This document shows, piece by piece, positions 15,301 through 30,850 of a DNA stretch of 30,850 nucleotides; the first letter of the stretch is position 1, and every line of letters begins with the position of its first letter. The notes beneath the pieces were generated by a model. That model ran no database searches. It was not told where the DNA came from and worked only from the letters and a program-made list of their open reading frames with translations. Both the position numbers and the translations under genes were made by a program. This stretch comes from a virus, in IMG/VR virus record IMGVR_UViG_3300033153_005718, positions 1 through 30,850 of that record. One strand, written 5' to 3'.

Positions 15301-15765
15301 CTATGCTACTGCGGCTGGTGTGATTTCCTCGGTGACAACGATCACAGCGGCTACGGCTTCTTCCTCGGTATCTGCATCCATATCTGAATGAGGAGGGCAT
15401 GATACGACGTGGATGCTGCCGCCGAAGGTATAGCCGGTCATTCCGGCTGTTACTCCAGCTGGTATAACTACCATTGAAGCAAGCTCGGTGTTATTTTCAT
15501 ATGCTTCCCAAAGCTCGACCATTAAACCGTCAGCGCCGGCCGTTTCATCAAGGGACCGATCGTCGAGAATGCTCATGGCTACCTCGAAGTTTCCGGCTTT
15601 CGCTCTAGTCTGGGTTTCTGTTTTACTTCCACCCAAGCTGTTCACGATTCTTTCGCTTTTACGGGGAACGTTGTAGGAAAGCGTTTTAACACTTCCGTTC
15701 TGCTCTGTTCCGCCGATGTTGACGGACCCGCGATCAGGTATGTAAAGTTGAGTTGTTATTGGCAT
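15301..15765 (-). CDS. Major tail (tube) protein, copy 2
   Basis: This 154-residue protein is the second of two tandem paralogues; by hand alignment without gaps about 121 of 154 residues are identical. Identity is complete in GSVKTLSYNVPRKSERIVNS and in GYTFGGSIHV, and lowest around residues 71-95. Position between tail-completion genes and the chaperones marks it as a tail-tube protein, the subunit stacked in rings along the tail. The C-terminus is acidic then hydrophobic (DADTEEEAVAAVIVVTEE). An AAGGAT ribosome site precedes the ATG. Tube identity comes from gene order; the duplication is visible. Confidence 0.75.
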   Translation of the reverse strand: MPITTQLYIPDRGSVNIGGTEQNGSVKTLSYNVPRKSERIVNSLGGSKTETQTRAKAGNFEVAMSILDDRSLDETAGADGLMVELWEAYENNTELASMVVIPAGVTAGMTGYTFGGSIHVVSCPPHSDMDADTEEEAVAAVIVVTEEITPAAVA

Positions 15766-15805: not shown

Positions 15806-16270
15806 TTATGCAATCGCGGCAGGGGTAATATCCTCAGTAACGACGATAACTGGGACAACGGCTTCTTCTTCGGTATCTGCATCCAAATCTGCATGAGGAG
15901 GACAAGACACCACATGGATGCTGCCGCCGAAGGTATAACCGGTCATGCCGGTCGTGCTTCCAGCAGGAACAACGAGCATGTTTGTTAGCTCGGTGTTGTT
16001 TTCGTAAGCATCCCAAAGCATTTTCAAGACTCCGGTTCCCGCTGCGCTTTCCAGAAGGGATCGATCGTCAAGAACGCTAAGAGCTACCTCGAAATTGCCT
16101 GCCTTTGCTCTGGATTGGGTTTCTGTCTTGTTTCCACCCAGGCTGTTTACGATCCTTTCGCTTTTGCGCGGGACGTTGTAGGAAAGGGTCTTTACGCTTC
16201 CGTTGTGTTCACTACTGTTGATTGTAACTGATCCGCGATCAGGTATGTAAAGTTGATTTGTTATTGCCAT
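15806..16270 (-). CDS. Major tail (tube) protein, copy 1
   Basis: This is the upstream member of the duplicated pair (154 residues, MAITNQLYIPDRGSVTINSS). It has an AGGAG ribosome site and is followed by a 40-base gap before copy 2. Both copies keep the same length, start, cysteine (VSCPPH) and C-terminal pattern, so neither looks like a decaying pseudogene. Two tube proteins could form a mixed tube, or one could cap or initiate it. Copy 1 and copy 2 differ mainly at 16-20 and 73-97, regions likely to face the tube surface or subunit contacts (inference). Confidence 0.75.
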   Translation of the reverse strand: MAITNQLYIPDRGSVTINSSEHNGSVKTLSYNVPRKSERIVNSLGGNKTETQSRAKAGNFEVALSVLDDRSLLESAAGTGVLKMLWDAYENNTELTNMLVVPAGSTTGMTGYTFGGSIHVVSCPPHADLDADTEEEAVVPVIVVTEDITPAAIA

Positions 16271-22563: not shown

Positions 22564-23319
22564 TTATATGGTCAAACTATGTAATCTTCTGCGCCGCTGT
22601 CTCTTCCTCTTGCTTGTCCATGTTAATGCTGCGGCGGCTAATACGGCGACCATAGCGGCATCGTCATGATCTCCTTCAGGTGCGGCTTGTGTACTTGCGT
22701 CTATGTTGGCGATCTGCGCCAATATGATGGGACTCTTGATTCCTAGCTCTCCGATTTCCATCAACTCGGCTAATTTATCCATGGCTAATGTTTTTGTTCT
22801 TTGGGTGGTGAGCCAGCCTGTTTTGTTGTCAAAGGGATTCTTGTACAACCACTTGTAATCGTAGAGATCTCGCAAGGCGAGCTGCACAGCATGACCATGA
22901 TTGTTCCTCTCTACACAAACGGTGGCCTGGTTGAACGCCTGCGCTAATCTGTAAATGTATCCGGCGAAGGTGCTTGGCTCCCACGCTCCTTCGGCATAGG
23001 CTACTTCCTCGAAGAGTAATGCGTCCCATATGGCGACTGCAGATGGATCGTTTACTGTGTCACCTTCTGCCGGGTCAGCGGTGATGAGATACGGCCGTCC
23101 TAGTAGTATTGTCTCGTAATAGACTATCCCCGGTATCCTTGGCAAACCGGCCCGACCTAATCTGCTTAATGGATCTGCTTCTCTTGTCGCAGCTTTGATC
23201 CAACTAGGCAAGAATCGCTTGTTTGCGCTCAGTCCGGCTAATGCCTGGGATGGAATTTCTGGATATTCCTGCCACAGATCGTCTTGCTCTTTGGTTTTTA
23301 GCTTGGCCTGGCGTACCAT
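22564..23319 (-). CDS. terL: Large terminase, nuclease part
   Basis: This 251-residue frame carries the RNase H-like nuclease half of a large terminase: LITADPAEGD (Asp82), VCVERNNHGH (Glu137) and APEGDHDDAA (Asp217/Asp219/Asp220) give the three acidic metal-binding positions. Its beginning (KLKTKEQDDLWQEYPE) matches the segment linking the ATPase to the nuclease in intact terminases. It overlaps the ATPase frame by 22 bases in a different frame, with no clear ribosome site before its ATG. Either the two are expressed as separate subunits, or a frameshift (programmed, or an indel) joins them. The nuclease cuts concatemeric DNA at headful or site-specific ends. Confidence 0.85.
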   Translation of the reverse strand: MVRQAKLKTKEQDDLWQEYPEIPSQALAGLSANKRFLPSWIKAATREADPLSRLGRAGLPRIPGIVYYETILLGRPYLITADPAEGDTVNDPSAVAIWDALLFEEVAYAEGAWEPSTFAGYIYRLAQAFNQATVCVERNNHGHAVQLALRDLYDYKWLYKNPFDNKTGWLTTQRTKTLAMDKLAELMEIGELGIKSPIILAQIANIDASTQAAPEGDHDDAAMVAVLAAAALTWTSKRKRQRRRRLHSLTI

Positions 23320-24110
23320 GGCAGGAAGAGGGGGATGTAGTCGCTCTCTCCTTTTACGCTACGTCTGTATAATGCTGCAAAATTGTTGTTTGGAACTTCT
23401 TTGTCATTCGTGGAAATTATTGCTAATTTACCGCCTGCATCTGCGGTTTCTTCGGCCGCGTTTAGCAACTGCTTGAGGAAGGGAATAAAGGCTCCTTCAT
23501 CAATCAATACGAAGCTGGCGGTGAAACTGCGGCCGCTGTGCTTTGTGGTCATGAAGCTCTTGGCCCGACTACCGTTCTTTAGGATCAACTGTTGCTCTAA
23601 TACTTTGTCTGCTTCCGGCCGTATCCAGTCTGGCAGTCTTTCCCACATGCCTGCTATTCTTCTGGCAAGTTCTCGTGAATCTTCTCCGTTCTTGGAAAAT
23701 AATAGGATCATTGATCCTGGCTTGAATACCATTAACCACAGGCTGTATCCGATTAGCAGCCATGTAATTCCTAGCTGCCTTGCTTTTAGGATGACAACTT
23801 TGTTGTTTTTGTGTACAACTTTGATTGCTTCTCGCTGTGCCGACCATAGTTTAAAATCGTACCAAGCTGTTCCCGGCCGGTTTGGATCTTCTATCTGACA
23901 ATAGTTGTCAATGAAGTATCCTGGGGACATGCCGCATTTGGCGATTTCTAATGCGTGATGATCTTTTTCTGGGGCGATGATTGGGACGGTTGAGTCTTTG
24001 GCCGGCGAGGTTTCACGCTCGCCGGCCATCGTTGTCTCTTCGCGCAACGTTATTTCCTGATCTCTGGGGGGTATCTCTGTGTCGATCTCTTTTGTATCTT
24101 CGCCTTGCAT
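23298..24110 (-). CDS. terL: Large terminase, ATPase part
   Basis: The 270-residue frame carries the ATP-binding half of a large terminase. Walker A-like KARQLGIT lies at residues 109-116, Walker B VLIDEG at 201-206, and the coupling motif IISTND at 231-236. It ends at LFLPWYARPS, a segment that in intact terminases continues into the nuclease half, here found in the overlapping -1 frame. The first 50 residues are charged and poorly ordered. No ribosome site precedes the ATG at 24110; an internal ATG at residue 28 is possible. This motor packages DNA into the procapsid through the portal. Confidence 0.88.
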   Translation of the reverse strand: MQGEDTKEIDTEIPPRDQEITLREETTMAGERETSPAKDSTVPIIAPEKDHHALEIAKCGMSPGYFIDNYCQIEDPNRPGTAWYDFKLWSAQREAIKVVHKNNKVVILKARQLGITWLLIGYSLWLMVFKPGSMILLFSKNGEDSRELARRIAGMWERLPDWIRPEADKVLEQQLILKNGSRAKSFMTTKHSGRSFTASFVLIDEGAFIPFLKQLLNAAEETADAGGKLAIISTNDKEVPNNNFAALYRRSVKGESDYIPLFLPWYARPS

Positions 24111-24395: not shown

Positions 24396-24791
24396 TTATT
24401 TGTGATAATCGCCAAACTGCTTGATAAACCTGTCACATAATTGTCTTACTGTTTCTTTTGATCCTGGAAACCACGTATGGTTATATCTATGCCACGAAAC
24501 TATACAATTGGCTGCATCTACATCTTGTTCTTCATCTTCTGTTTCATGCTCGGCTAAGATGAAAATCGTTGGCTTTGTTATTTGCAGGTCATCTGTCAAT
24601 CTTTGAAATGCCATTGCTTGACCACGGCTCATACTCTTGCCTTTGCTTTTTAGTTCAATGAATATGTAGCAGCTATCTCTATATTCTATTAATCCGTCGA
24701 TATCTGTTGGAGATATACCATAATCGAATACTAATCCAGAAAAATCGTTTAATTGCCTGGCTCGCGATCTCCATACTATTTTACCTAGCAT
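24396..24791 (-). CDS. PD-(D/E)xK-like nuclease
   Basis: The 131-residue protein has a likely PD-(D/E)xK core: SPTDIDGLIEY (Asp30/Asp32) followed by a strand and the E-x-K motif in IFIELKSKGK (Glu46, Lys48), then a glutamine-containing helix (SRGQAMAFQRL). This is the order of metal-binding residues in Holliday junction resolvases, VRR-NUC and related phage nucleases. I chose ATG at 24791, which overlaps the preceding methyltransferase by 11 bases; a TTG at 24827 would add 12 residues. Near the terminase it may trim or resolve DNA for packaging, or act in recombination. Confidence 0.6.
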   Translation of the reverse strand: MLGKIVWRSRARQLNDFSGLVFDYGISPTDIDGLIEYRDSCYIFIELKSKGKSMSRGQAMAFQRLTDDLQITKPTIFILAEHETEDEEQDVDAANCIVSWHRYNHTWFPGSKETVRQLCDRFIKQFGDYHK

Positions 24792-25713
24792 ATAATATTG
24801 TCCCGTATTGCTTAAATTCAGCCGCAAATATGTCCACTTTTGTGCTTGGCCCTATGTATATTATTGCTTGGGCTTGTAATGGTGTTTTGCCTTTGTTTCC
24901 TTCTTTGTCTATGAACCTGATCCTGCTCCTGGGAAAACATATGACTCCGCATTGTTCTGCTAATTGCCTGAACCACTTTGTTTCTGTCGCATTGTTCACC
25001 AGGATGATGGCTTCTTCTACTGTTCCGCTTGTTATGCTTTCTGCTAGTTTCTGACAGAATTGCGCGATTAATGGCTGTGAATAAGGTGGGTTCATCCATA
25101 TTCTCCCGCCCCACTCCCATAGCAGTCCGTCATCTTCTTCTGTGAAGTAGGCAATTGCTTGTACTATTTCGTTTGCTGTTTCTGAGGAGGCAGGATCTAG
25201 GTCGATCTCTCCCATTACTTTTCTTGCGGATTCTATATATGTTTTTGGGGTATACCATTCGTTTTCGCCACTGGCTTGACCTACGTGCGCCCCATTGATT
25301 GCTCGCAATACGCCAGCCTGAGACAACTCCTTTCCGCTGTCTTTCATGTCGTTTATTATCTTGTCAAATTTTTCTTCGGGAATGCTTGCCATTTTCTGCC
25401 ATCGGGACGACGACATCTTGCTGATGTTGTTATCTTCAAGCGCCTGGGCGTATTCGGAGATAGGTAACACGCTGTTACTTATCTTTTTCCCTGGCGGCTT
25501 CCCCCTCTCGTATTCCTCTAAAAATGTGCCTCCTTTTCTCTCGGCCCGTATCTGTACCTCTTTCGCTTCTTGGGCAACTTCTCCCATGTTTCTTGCTGTT
25601 GCTAATGCGTTTGCTGCCATTGCGGCATCCTTTATGTCTAATACGTCGACCATTTCACCGGCTTCTCTTAGAGCTAGTTTCATTCTGCTTATTGGTATTA
25701 GTTCTGTTGGCAT
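24781..25713 (-). CDS. DNA N6-adenine methyltransferase (Dam-like) with N-terminal helical domain
   Basis: Residues about 150-305 are a phage-type Dam methyltransferase: NEWYTPKTYIESARKVMG, the SAM-binding region DLDPASSETAN (from 171) and the catalytic motif NPPY (208-211), which accepts the target adenine. The first about 150 residues are a helical, charged domain (RAERKGGTFLEEYERGKPPG) often fused to such enzymes in phages and genomic islands, possibly a target-binding or partner module. AAGGGG precedes the ATG. It is the first gene after a strong terminator, so its transcription may rely on read-through or on its own weak promoter. It could protect phage DNA from host restriction. Confidence 0.8.
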   Translation of the reverse strand: MPTELIPISRMKLALREAGEMVDVLDIKDAAMAANALATARNMGEVAQEAKEVQIRAERKGGTFLEEYERGKPPGKKISNSVLPISEYAQALEDNNISKMSSSRWQKMASIPEEKFDKIINDMKDSGKELSQAGVLRAINGAHVGQASGENEWYTPKTYIESARKVMGEIDLDPASSETANEIVQAIAYFTEEDDGLLWEWGGRIWMNPPYSQPLIAQFCQKLAESITSGTVEEAIILVNNATETKWFRQLAEQCGVICFPRSRIRFIDKEGNKGKTPLQAQAIIYIGPSTKVDIFAAEFKQYGTILYAR

Positions 25714-26810: not shown

Positions 26811-26986
26811 AGTTTCTCCTGGATGATCTTCGCGGCGCTGATTAAGCCGGCTATCCGACCTTCGTTGAAAATTCCGGTTACTCTATCCCCTTCCCGCCTG
26901 GCGCTTTTGGCTTTGTTTTTGCTGTCATTGATCTCTTTGCTGATCTTCCAAAGTTGGTTCTCGCTGGTTTCTTTTGCGCTGCTCAT
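26807..26986 (-). CDS. Small helical hypothetical protein
   Basis: The 59-residue protein (MSSAKETSENQLWKISKEIN) is basic and helical (SKNKAKSARREGDRVTG) with a hydrophobic end (GLISAAKIIQEKL). I chose ATG at 26986, which overlaps the methyltransferase stop as ATGA and has a GGAG-rich site upstream; a longer frame to 27022 is less well supported. It is adjacent to the methyltransferase and co-translated with it, so a partner role is possible but not shown. Confidence 0.6.
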   Translation of the reverse strand: MSSAKETSENQLWKISKEINDSKNKAKSARREGDRVTGIFNEGRIAGLISAAKIIQEKL

Positions 26987-27696
26987 AGTAGCCCTCTCTC
27001 CTTCATTGATAAAAGATGCCACGGTATGTCTATGCTCCCGCCAAGTTTTAGGAATGCCGTGGCAAATGTCTCTGTGTTATCACCAAAGTATGTGACCATG
27101 CTCGCTTTGCTTACGCCTTTGGCTACTTTTCCCGATTCTCCGTCTATATAATTTATCCGCACGTCAGGCTTCCACCTGGGATACTCTTTTAATATGTTGC
27201 CCCATCCTGTGCTTTCGCTGGCGAAGGTTAGCATTAATCCTTCGACGATCTCGCCTGTTCTCCAGGCATACTCCATTCTGCTTACCCATTCTAATATGCC
27301 CGGCCGGAACTGTAGGATGTGGTAATCTCTTTTCTGACACCTTTTCTTGTAACAGCTAAAGTTCCCGTCTTTGTTCACGTTGCAGGCGCTCTCGCCTTGC
27401 CCGAATGGTGGGTTGAGCCACACACGCCCTTCCCAGTCTTTTGTCAGTCCGTCTTGCCCTCTATACCTGCGATAGAATCTTGCGTCGCCTGACCATCTTG
27501 GATTGATTGGTACTTCTTCGTAGCCAGGTTCGAGATAGCTTCTTCTCGCTCCAATTCGCAGGTTCGCTTTTTCGCTGGTGGCCGGGTCGAGATCGATCTC
27601 CCCTCCGAATAATTCTTTGGCTGCTTCTATGATGTCCATTGGTGTCCACCACTCGACGTTCCCGCTGCTTTGGTTGATTAGTTCGTGATTTTCCAT
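26983..27696 (-). CDS. DNA N6-adenine methyltransferase (Dam-like) with cysteine-rich insert
   Basis: The 237-residue protein is a second phage Dam-type enzyme: VEWWTPMDIIEAAKELFG, the SAM-binding DLDPATSEKAN (from residue 35) and NPPF (95-98) in the catalytic loop. Just after the catalytic loop it has an insert with Cys105, Cys115, Cys120 and His126, which looks like a zinc-binding or zinc-ribbon-like module. I chose ATG at 27696 because AAGGAG is 6 bases upstream; the earlier ATG abuts the site. It likely methylates adenine to protect phage DNA or mark it. The insert is uncommon for the family as I know it. Confidence 0.8.
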   Translation of the reverse strand: MENHELINQSSGNVEWWTPMDIIEAAKELFGGEIDLDPATSEKANLRIGARRSYLEPGYEEVPINPRWSGDARFYRRYRGQDGLTKDWEGRVWLNPPFGQGESACNVNKDGNFSCYKKRCQKRDYHILQFRPGILEWVSRMEYAWRTGEIVEGLMLTFASESTGWGNILKEYPRWKPDVRINYIDGESGKVAKGVSKASMVTYFGDNTETFATAFLKLGGSIDIPWHLLSMKERGLL

Positions 27697-27706
27697 GCTC
27701 ATCTCC

Positions 27707-28236: not shown

Positions 28237-29169
28237 CTAATCCGCAGATTCTTTGTTGCCTCCCGGAAGCTTTTGATCGTCGCTCGCTTCTGCCTGATCT
28301 AAGATAACAACTGGACGGCCGTTTTCCGTACCTGGCGCTGCTCCCAATTCGTCCCAACTGCTGAGCTGACTGGTTGCTTTTTCCATTAGCTGAGCGACTT
28401 GCCCTTCGCTTAGTTCCGCTTTTATGTTGATGTTGGTATTTACAGAGCCTTTTGCGGCGGTGGATCGGTCTGCGGCTTGCATGATGTCTCGCGCCGCTTG
28501 CAGCTGCACCCACGGATTTGGATGCTCTAGTAATGTGGTCCTGACTTCTGCGGCCCGACCTGCGCTTGTCCGGGTGATTCGCGTCGCTTTCCTGATCTCG
28601 CTTAATTCATGGTCCAGAACCTCGCTCTCCATTAGGCTGTAGATCTCGTCGTAGATGCTGCGGATCTTGGGTTTCATCATCCACTGTTCCCAGGCTACCC
28701 GGCTTGAGGTAATGGCTAGGTCAAAGACTTGTTTCCTTGGCTTGCTTAGGTAATCTGCGGTAACTACGAGTAGGATGGTCCTTTTCATGACGAGCATTTG
28801 TAGGTTTTTTACTTTCCAGGTGTCTATCCTGTCTAATATTGGCTTGGTCTTTGCTAACCACCTGATGTGATGCTCGGTTATCCCTTCTTCTATGGCGGTT
28901 TTTTGTACCCACTTGGTCATTTCGCTGAAATCTTCGTGCTTGGGCTTGCCTAGACTCCTGGCAAACCATTCCATTGGCCCCTCATCTTTCCCTTTTGCCT
29001 CTGGTAGCTCTACTTCTGCGAATTCTGCGGCCGGACCTTGCTGTATCTGGTGACTCTTTTCGTGCCACCATTTCTTTTCTCGCGTTCTGGCTTCTTTTTC
29101 TGCTTCGATGTCAGGGGGATCTGTCCTTCTGTTTCGCCTGGTGTTGCTGCTGCTGCTTTCTGCGCTCAT
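28237..29169 (-). CDS. Possible small terminase
   Basis: This 310-residue protein is charged and helical. The start has a Ser/Arg/Asp-rich tail (about 1-35), the middle has EEGITEHHIRWLAKTKPILD and LVMKRTILLVVTADYLSK, and the C-terminal part has WVQLQAARDIMQAADRSTAA followed by a Ser/Asn-rich and acidic tail. The QLQAARDIM..A segment followed by a short beta tail resembles small terminase or DNA-packaging proteins in which ordered helices recognise DNA. A strong AAGGAGG precedes the ATG. It is separated from the large terminase by the accessory genes, which is unusual but seen. No HTH motif is obvious, so the call is tentative. Confidence 0.5.
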   Translation of the reverse strand: MSAESSSSNTRRNRRTDPPDIEAEKEARTREKKWWHEKSHQIQQGPAAEFAEVELPEAKGKDEGPMEWFARSLGKPKHEDFSEMTKWVQKTAIEEGITEHHIRWLAKTKPILDRIDTWKVKNLQMLVMKRTILLVVTADYLSKPRKQVFDLAITSSRVAWEQWMMKPKIRSIYDEIYSLMESEVLDHELSEIRKATRITRTSAGRAAEVRTTLLEHPNPWVQLQAARDIMQAADRSTAAKGSVNTNINIKAELSEGQVAQLMEKATSQLSSWDELGAAPGTENGRPVVILDQAEASDDQKLPGGNKESAD

Positions 29170-29257: not shown

Positions 29258-29285
29258 ATGACAGAGGAGGGGGATCTGGTATAAT
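29258..29285 (+). promoter_or_regulatory. Sigma-70-type promoter for the HNH gene
   Basis: ATGACA (29258-29263, 5 of 6 to TTGACA) and a perfect TATAAT (29280-29285) lie 16 bases apart on the plus strand, about 75 bases before the HNH gene. The spacer contains GAGGGGGAT, also found before the next candidate promoter at 30049-30078. Confidence 0.65.
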
Positions 29286-29359: not shown

Positions 29360-30055
29360 TTGATTCAAGACTCTATCATCAATCCAAAACATTTCCACGG
29401 TAAACCTTGCAAGAAATGTGGGGCTACGCTTCGGTATAAGCGCAATCGTAGGTGTGTCGAATGTAAGAAGAAAGAAAACCATTGTTGGTCAGAAGGTAAT
29501 AGAGAAAGAACGCGAAGTAATAGTCGTCGTTATTATTATGCAAATTTAGAGGAGCGCCTTAAAAAAAATCGCGCTTATCGAAAAGCTAATCCTGGAAAGG
29601 ACCGTGAACAAAGGCGTCGATATCGTCAGGAAAATCGAGAAAGGATTCGGAAAATAAATCGTCGTTATTATTATGCAAATCCAGAGAAGGTTCGAGCAGG
29701 GGTCCGCCGATGGGGGCTGGCAAATCCAAATAGATTGCGTTTTTATAGCCAGCGGCGCCGTGCTCTAAAGTATACCGCAACGGTTGAAAACGTCATTGAT
29801 ACAAAAGTCTTTGCGCGTAACAAATGGACCTGCGGGATCTGTGATAAGCCTGTAGATCCAGACCTCAGGCATCCAGATCCGATGAGCGCAAGCCTTGATC
29901 ACATCATCCCGCTGTCAAGGGGTGGGGATCACTCTTATGCGAATACTCAATGTACACACCTGGTTTGTAACTTGAGGAAGCATAATAAATACGATGGTCC
30001 TAATCCTGACGGCTCTGATCGTTGGATGCAGCTAAGTCTCTTTGAAATTTGCTAG
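29360..30055 (+). CDS. HNH endonuclease with zinc ribbon and repeat region
   Basis: The 231-residue protein starts at TTG, supported by GGAGGT 5 bases upstream. It has an N-terminal zinc ribbon (Cys17/20, Cys32/35), a basic middle with repeats (NRERTRSNSRRYYYANLEER and NRERIRKINRRYYYANPEKV) and a C-terminal HNH nuclease domain: CGIC (158-161), LDHIIPLSRGGDHSYAN (His181, His191) and CNLRKHNK (Cys203, Asn204). HNH proteins are often free-standing homing enzymes in phages, or act in packaging. It is the only plus-strand gene, has its own promoter, and its composition (AT-rich repeats) differs from neighbours, so transfer is likely. Confidence 0.85.
   Translation: MIQDSIINPKHFHGKPCKKCGATLRYKRNRRCVECKKKENHCWSEGNRERTRSNSRRYYYANLEERLKKNRAYRKANPGKDREQRRRYRQENRERIRKINRRYYYANPEKVRAGVRRWGLANPNRLRFYSQRRRALKYTATVENVIDTKVFARNKWTCGICDKPVDPDLRHPDPMSASLDHIIPLSRGGDHSYANTQCTHLVCNLRKHNKYDGPNPDGSDRWMQLSLFEIC
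29524..29680 (+). repeat. 22-bp direct repeat inside the HNH gene
   Basis: The same 22-bp word occurs at 29524-29545 and 29659-29680, encoding RRYYYAN plus part of the next residue. The spacing of 135 bases keeps frame (45 codons). It marks a duplicated NRER...RRYYYAN-type unit. Confidence 0.8.
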
Positions 30056-30078
30056 GGGAGGGGGATTAGAAATATATT
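30049..30078 (+). promoter_or_regulatory. Candidate promoter into the hairpin region
   Basis: TTGCTA (30049-30054) and TATATT (30073-30078) are 18 bases apart on the plus strand, overlapping the end of the HNH gene. The spacer contains the same GAGGGGGAT word as the HNH promoter. It would start a transcript entering the gene-free hairpin field. Confidence 0.4.
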
Positions 30079-30850
30079 TTAGACTTTCTTCGCCTTTCCT
30101 CCTTATTCCAAGTCTCTTTTACTAACTGTCGGTGTGCCTGTCGGGTTCCCTTATAGGGTTGCTTCGGTGTCGTATCCTCTCTTGGTTGAGGAGGGATTTT
30201 CTAGGGAGTCCCCTAGCGTAAGCTTTCGATGACCTCTCCTAAGCCGGCGCACCGGCTACGACCGGCACTCCGGCCGGTCGTCACGTATCTTATCTGTATC
30301 TTAGTCTCTATATCTATTCAGATATAGAGACGGCATCAGCTTCCATGCTATCACATGCTCGCAGATGCCCACACCACACGGCCGTCACGTATGTATAGTC
30401 CGTGTGGTGTGTATGTGTGTAGTGGGGAAACCTCGTCGTTTTGTGTTACCTAAAGGTAACAGTCACTCCTCGGTTTCCCCACTGGGGGGGGGTGTGTGTA
30501 TGTAGTGTGTAGGTATGTGATACCTACTTCCGGCCGCAGCGAAGCACCGGCTCCACGGTCCCCCATAATTTTGGGAGAGCATGAAGCCGGTGCTTGCATG
30601 AGCGTGCACGTGTGGGGTGGGGGATGTATCCGTATGTATAGTGATGGCATGTGCCCTTCGGCTTGCCTCCGACGGGCGGTCCCGATCGGCATCGGGTTCG
30701 CCTTCGCCCCGGCCGTGAAGGGATGCCCCTGCATGATAAAGCATGTGGTGTACACGTGTGTGCATGGTGGTGCATGTGTCAGATACCCAGGGGTGACGGG
30801 GGTCCACAGGTGTGCCGGGGGCATATACATATATATGCACAATGCAGAAT
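30079..30850 (+). ncRNA. Gene-free hairpin field, candidate large structured RNA
   Basis: No convincing gene is seen. Perfect stems include: 6 bp at 30242-30257, 8 bp at 30259-30280, 12 bp at 30304-30331, 12 bp at 30370-30411, 12 bp at 30421-30483 with an inner 7-bp stem (30444-30461), 7 bp at 30509-30527, 11 bp at 30542-30595, 6 bp at 30681-30696 and 7 bp at 30821-30838. An outer helix GGCAT/CCCTTC (30646-30659) with GAAGGG/ATGCC (30717-30727) encloses the 30681 stem, and the surrounding pairs include G-U, which pair on plus-strand RNA only. Large phage RNAs such as GOLLD or ROOL have this look; a replication origin is the alternative. The strand and identity are inferred. Confidence 0.45.

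Follow-up and report, generated by a model that had tools for sequence, protein, structure and literature searches.

The sequence analysed here (the window) is an IMG/VR virus record of 30,850 bases, at the right-hand end of which lies a gene-free and hairpin-dense region (30056-30850) with an architecture of conserved hairpins strung on C/A-rich linkers (Table 1). The structured region overall comprises approximately 0.8-0.9 kb, and the window ends inside it. The flanking genes of this uncultured phage run leftward, on the minus strand; they include a conserved gene for a 310-aa protein, which has a split terminase among its own leftward neighbours. Two adjacent and very similar 154-aa genes on the same strand (15301-15765 and 15806-16270) represent a tandem duplication in the structural region, and two Dam-type DNA methyltransferase genes are located close together (24781-25713 and 26983-27702, minus strand).

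The element is carried by four contigs, the window and three others from IMG/VR. IMGVR_UViG_3300021514_000001 (L003) has a copy that is 97% identical to that of the window, and IMGVR_UViG_3300033143_003656 (L006) and IMGVR_UViG_3300033141_002166 (L005) together represent a second lineage in which the element is ~70% and the neighbouring protein 65% identical. Scans of viral and genome sequences, of a phage collection by DNA and protein, and of plasmids provided no relatives beyond these four; the DNA search of the phage collection returned just one 32-base chance match, and a search of the same collection with the helicase protein gave only distant helicase matches of at most ~32% identity. 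Four further contigs (L011, L013, L014 and L016) were rejected as relatives, the 17-19-base string that they share being a chance match inside unrelated coding sequence. L003 continues for ~85 bases from the point where the window ends to the upstream gene, and within these bases it shares with L006 a motif consisting of actatatggcttcgactt, a short covarying hairpin and then agaggactatgcgaaaacaagg. The large terminase gene of the window (22564-24110, minus strand) is split into overlapping open reading frames (22564-23319 and 23298-24110); as the two halves are in one frame in L003 and L005, the window copy has a frame break (assembly error or mutation). One end of the IMGVR_UViG_3300021514_000001 record (L007:1-100) consists of a tandem array of the 18-base unit CGATCCGCCAGGATGCAG, and a similar array is present in L009.

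Table 1. Features of the element and its neighbours in the window
Feature	Position	Strand	Observation
Putative large structured RNA element	30056-30850	-	Incomplete at right end of window; 5' end of a minus-strand RNA beyond window
H1, AGCCGG hairpin	30242-30257	-	4 of 6 pairs changed on both sides in second lineage
H2, ACGACCGGC hairpin	30258-30281	-	Identical in all copies
A-rich single-stranded stretch ACUAAGAUACAGAUA	30289-30305	-	Conserved
H3, GUCUC hairpin	30304-30331	-	Arms largely replaced in second lineage, pairing kept
H4, GGCAUC stem	30332-30369	-	Purine internal loop conserved on minus strand
H5, CACACCACACGG hairpin	30370-30411	-	Arms invariant in 4 of 4 copies
H6, nested hairpin (inner stem 30444-30461)	30421-30483	-	Two compensatory pairs in outer stem
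H6 internal loop	30421-30483	-	Tandem G.A on minus strand in both lineages
H7, GUAGGUAU hairpin	30509-30527	-	In L003, one U-A pair becomes U-G, which fits minus strand
H8, long hairpin	30542-30595	-	On minus strand, pairing at 23 of 24 positions; A-rich loop
H8 wobble	30542-30595	-	Three interior G-U pairs
Multi-branch region	30646-30727	-	Differs between lineages
HNH endonuclease gene	29360-30055	+	Apparent insertion, separate from RNA; missing in L005 and L006
Direct repeat TGCTAGGGGAGGGGGAT, right copy	30050-30066		Flanks HNH insertion; diverged left copy at ~29264-29275
Conserved 310-aa protein gene adjoining element	28237-29169	-	No Pfam family

The HNH gene that adjoins the element looks like an insertion with target duplication. 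In the window and L003 it sits between two copies of TGCTAGGGGAGGGGGAT (exact over 17 bases in L003), and L006, which is without the gene, has one copy; the neighbours that border the element are the same in L005 and L006, and neither contig has an HNH gene between them. Its product is a small HNH/endonuclease-VII-like protein for which Pfam reports HNH only, and the gene contains an internal 57-base repeat (29498-29554 and 29633-29689, 77% identical, 135 bases apart). At the opposite flank, TAAGGAATGATCA is found at the end of a gene twice, ~200 bases apart, in L006 (8715-8950) and once in L003, which suggests that a duplication or a relic lies immediately upstream of the RNA.

Hairpin content and conservation of the stems

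The hairpin content of the region is far above that expected of its composition. Perfect 12-bp arms occur at 30304-30315/30320-30331, 30370-30381/30400-30411 and 30421-30432/30472-30483, the last enclosing the inner stem of H6, and an imperfect palindrome of 27+27 nt spans 30542-30595. For 30056-30850, perfect inverted repeats numbered three at a minimum arm length of 12 (loops of at most 60) compared with none in 200 dinucleotide shuffles, and four at a minimum arm length of 10 compared with a shuffle mean of 0.04. Minimum free energy z-scores for the window copy (pair span limited to 150) were -6.4 on the plus and -11.4 on the minus strand, and whole-element folds of two relatives gave z-scores of -6 to -11. 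The field of stems described by the earlier note, including the stem nested within 30421-30483, is thus present where that note placed it. The note had also seen no believable gene here, and a six-frame comparison of L003 with L006 agrees: every frame aligns about equally poorly and none is favoured, so that no conserved frame runs through the region and a protein-coding reading was rejected. The open reading frames that do occur are mainly a consequence of the sequence being stop-poor.

Related contigs provided the covariation comparison that the earlier note had proposed. In seven helices that align well, 98.3% of cells are paired on the minus strand and 12 pairs carry two-sided changes; this set was drawn from the consensus fold and is still more neutral than a hand-matched count. 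When partners were shifted by 1-3 columns as a slide control, pairing dropped to 33-49%. With hand-matched helices added, 26 two-sided changes keep pairing and one pair is broken, a count that leans towards structure since the hand-matching picked the pairing register. RNAalifold on both strands likewise backs compensatory changes between the lineages. With just two deep lineages to compare, row-mixing shuffles are of little use, and more can be learned from the slide control. Within that scope of two lineages, stems are kept by paired substitutions, as in structured RNAs generally, and the proposal of a large structured phage RNA gains support from them. Very probably, then, the product of 30056-30850 is a large structured RNA that falls outside the known families.

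Strand of the putative RNA

Watson-Crick stems look alike on either strand, and the assignment of strand therefore depends on wobble pairs and loops. The seven helices are 98.3% paired on the minus strand versus 94.6% on the plus strand, and one-sided changes in the hand-matched helices keep pairing in four of five cases on the minus strand and in none of five on the plus strand. G-U pairs valid on the minus strand only are found in H8 (30542-30595; three in the window copy and one in L006), and H7 of L003, H4 of L006 and, in the upstream motif, the GGY/GCC pair each contribute one minus-fitting wobble. On the minus strand A makes up 41-43% of the unpaired bases; those of the plus strand are U-rich. 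A mechanical count of wobble pairs over all strong helices of the element gave a mixed result, for which reason we rely on helices that are homologous between the lineages.

The wobble in conserved stems, the tandem G.A and the A-rich loops all fit the minus strand, which we consider the likely strand of this RNA on evidence that amounts to about eight wobble positions. The neighbouring phage genes also run in this direction. The earlier note had instead proposed a plus-strand RNA, citing G-U pairs valid only on that strand. The multi-branch region does have such pairs, at the end of one helix, and H6 of L006 carries an extension that likewise fits the plus strand, but wobble and loops over the conserved stems favour the opposite orientation.

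Relation to known large RNAs

Rfam searches at gathering thresholds gave no match in the window, L003 or L006, including to GOLLD, ROOL and HEARO, which the earlier note had suggested as possible identities, and permissive E-values added irrelevant chance matches only. HEARO/OMEGA RNAs are constantly associated with an IscB-type HNH gene. The element resembles them in that an HNH gene adjoins it in the window; it differs in having no Rfam match and in that its HNH neighbour is small, endonuclease-VII-like and absent from relatives. As the RNA region is retained in L005 and L006 without an HNH gene, the proposed HNH-RNA link fails and an OMEGA/HEARO identity was rejected.

GOLLD genes are often located near tRNA islands; ARAGORN detected no tRNA or tmRNA within the window. 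GOLLD is a large RNA of phages and prophages, in many cases over 800 nt, that forms nanocages, and ROOL is another phage/prophage RNA that forms a nanocage (PMC12286853). The element is similar to GOLLD in being large, phage-borne and elaborate in predicted secondary structure; with ROOL it shares the character of a large, structured RNA of phages that has no known protein partner. In contrast to both, it has no covariance-model match and no tRNA in the window; it further differs from GOLLD in its placement between leftward phage genes and its string of hairpins on C/A-rich linkers, and from ROOL in that no pseudoknots were identified. GOLLD and ROOL identities were rejected on the covariance models, by which measure the element belongs to neither family, though it is like them in kind.

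Alternative readings and a neighbouring segment

On balance, we favour by a little the reading in which a new and lineage-specific large structured RNA of ~0.8-0.9 kb, transcribed leftward with the surrounding genes, acts as a stand-alone RNA. It would arise within the leftward (minus-strand) transcript and be processed out of, or accumulate from, that transcript, and in infected cells it may offer a scaffold for binding. L006 has ~200 extra bases on the side of the element opposite the HNH site; both these and the HNH insertion leave the hairpins intact, which argues against tight coupling to the neighbours and for a stand-alone RNA. The motif CACATGC (CACAUGC in RNA) occurs on the minus strand 3, 4 and 6 times in three copies of the element versus an expectation of ~0.15, and may be a recurring site of binding; its positions partly differ among copies and, compared with the average, the sites show no clear excess of unpaired bases. 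A cis-acting minus-strand intercistronic or leader region would instead control the leftward mRNA, through antitermination, stability or translation of the 310-aa gene, without being a separate RNA. The location between two leftward genes makes a promoter of its own unnecessary, consistent with our finding none for the element above chance level. However, two copies of the four have an 800-base HNH insertion between the element and the downstream gene with the hairpins undisturbed, and the element is large for a leader; we regard this arrangement as unlikely.

A plus-strand structured RNA, antisense to the leftward genes, would agree with the lower absolute minimum free energy on that strand, with some of the wobble extensions and with the apparent plus orientation of a neighbouring second element, but wobble inside the conserved helices fits the minus strand. 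The promoter proposed to point into the region (30049-30078, 9 of 12 bases, also present at the homologous place in L003) belongs to a class of sites of which three were found and 3.8 are expected by chance; it sits in the right-hand repeat flanking the inserted HNH gene and is poorly kept in L006, and a plus-strand RNA seems improbable. Replication origins and packaging sites consist of palindromes or iterons that are strand-neutral and to which an adjacent initiator or terminase binds. A DNA element of this type would suit an intergenic, palindrome-rich region with repeated CACATGC, inside which both the window and L005 contigs end. It would leave unexplained the wobble pairs kept in stems, and the strand-biased G-U-type changes and A-rich loops on one strand are those expected for RNA and not for duplex or cruciform DNA; no initiator gene was identified beside the element, and we give this reading a low probability.

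One gene beyond the putative stand-alone RNA, outside the window, lies a second conserved non-coding segment (L003 12250-12500, plus strand; L006 7845-8080, minus strand) with a long identical core of ~47 bases between the two contigs. Fold z-scores for L003 and L006 were -7.5 and -5.6 on the plus versus -3.8 and -4.7 on the minus strand, interior wobble pairs in L003 are plus-only (5 versus 0), and there was no Rfam match. This segment is apparently a plus-strand structured RNA of ~250 nt in opposite orientation to the first. It is possible, though we hold the idea tentatively, that the element is a large phage RNA of a new class and that, with this second, opposite RNA, it makes up a module of two RNAs specific to this lineage of phages, and two structured segments so close together represent a testable pair.

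To our knowledge, the large phage RNAs described are few, including GOLLD and ROOL, and have roles that are yet to be solved. If the element is indeed a further and unrelated member of this kind, it would suggest repeated origin of such RNAs in phages, and its clear stem conservation would provide a compact system for asking what large phage RNAs do.
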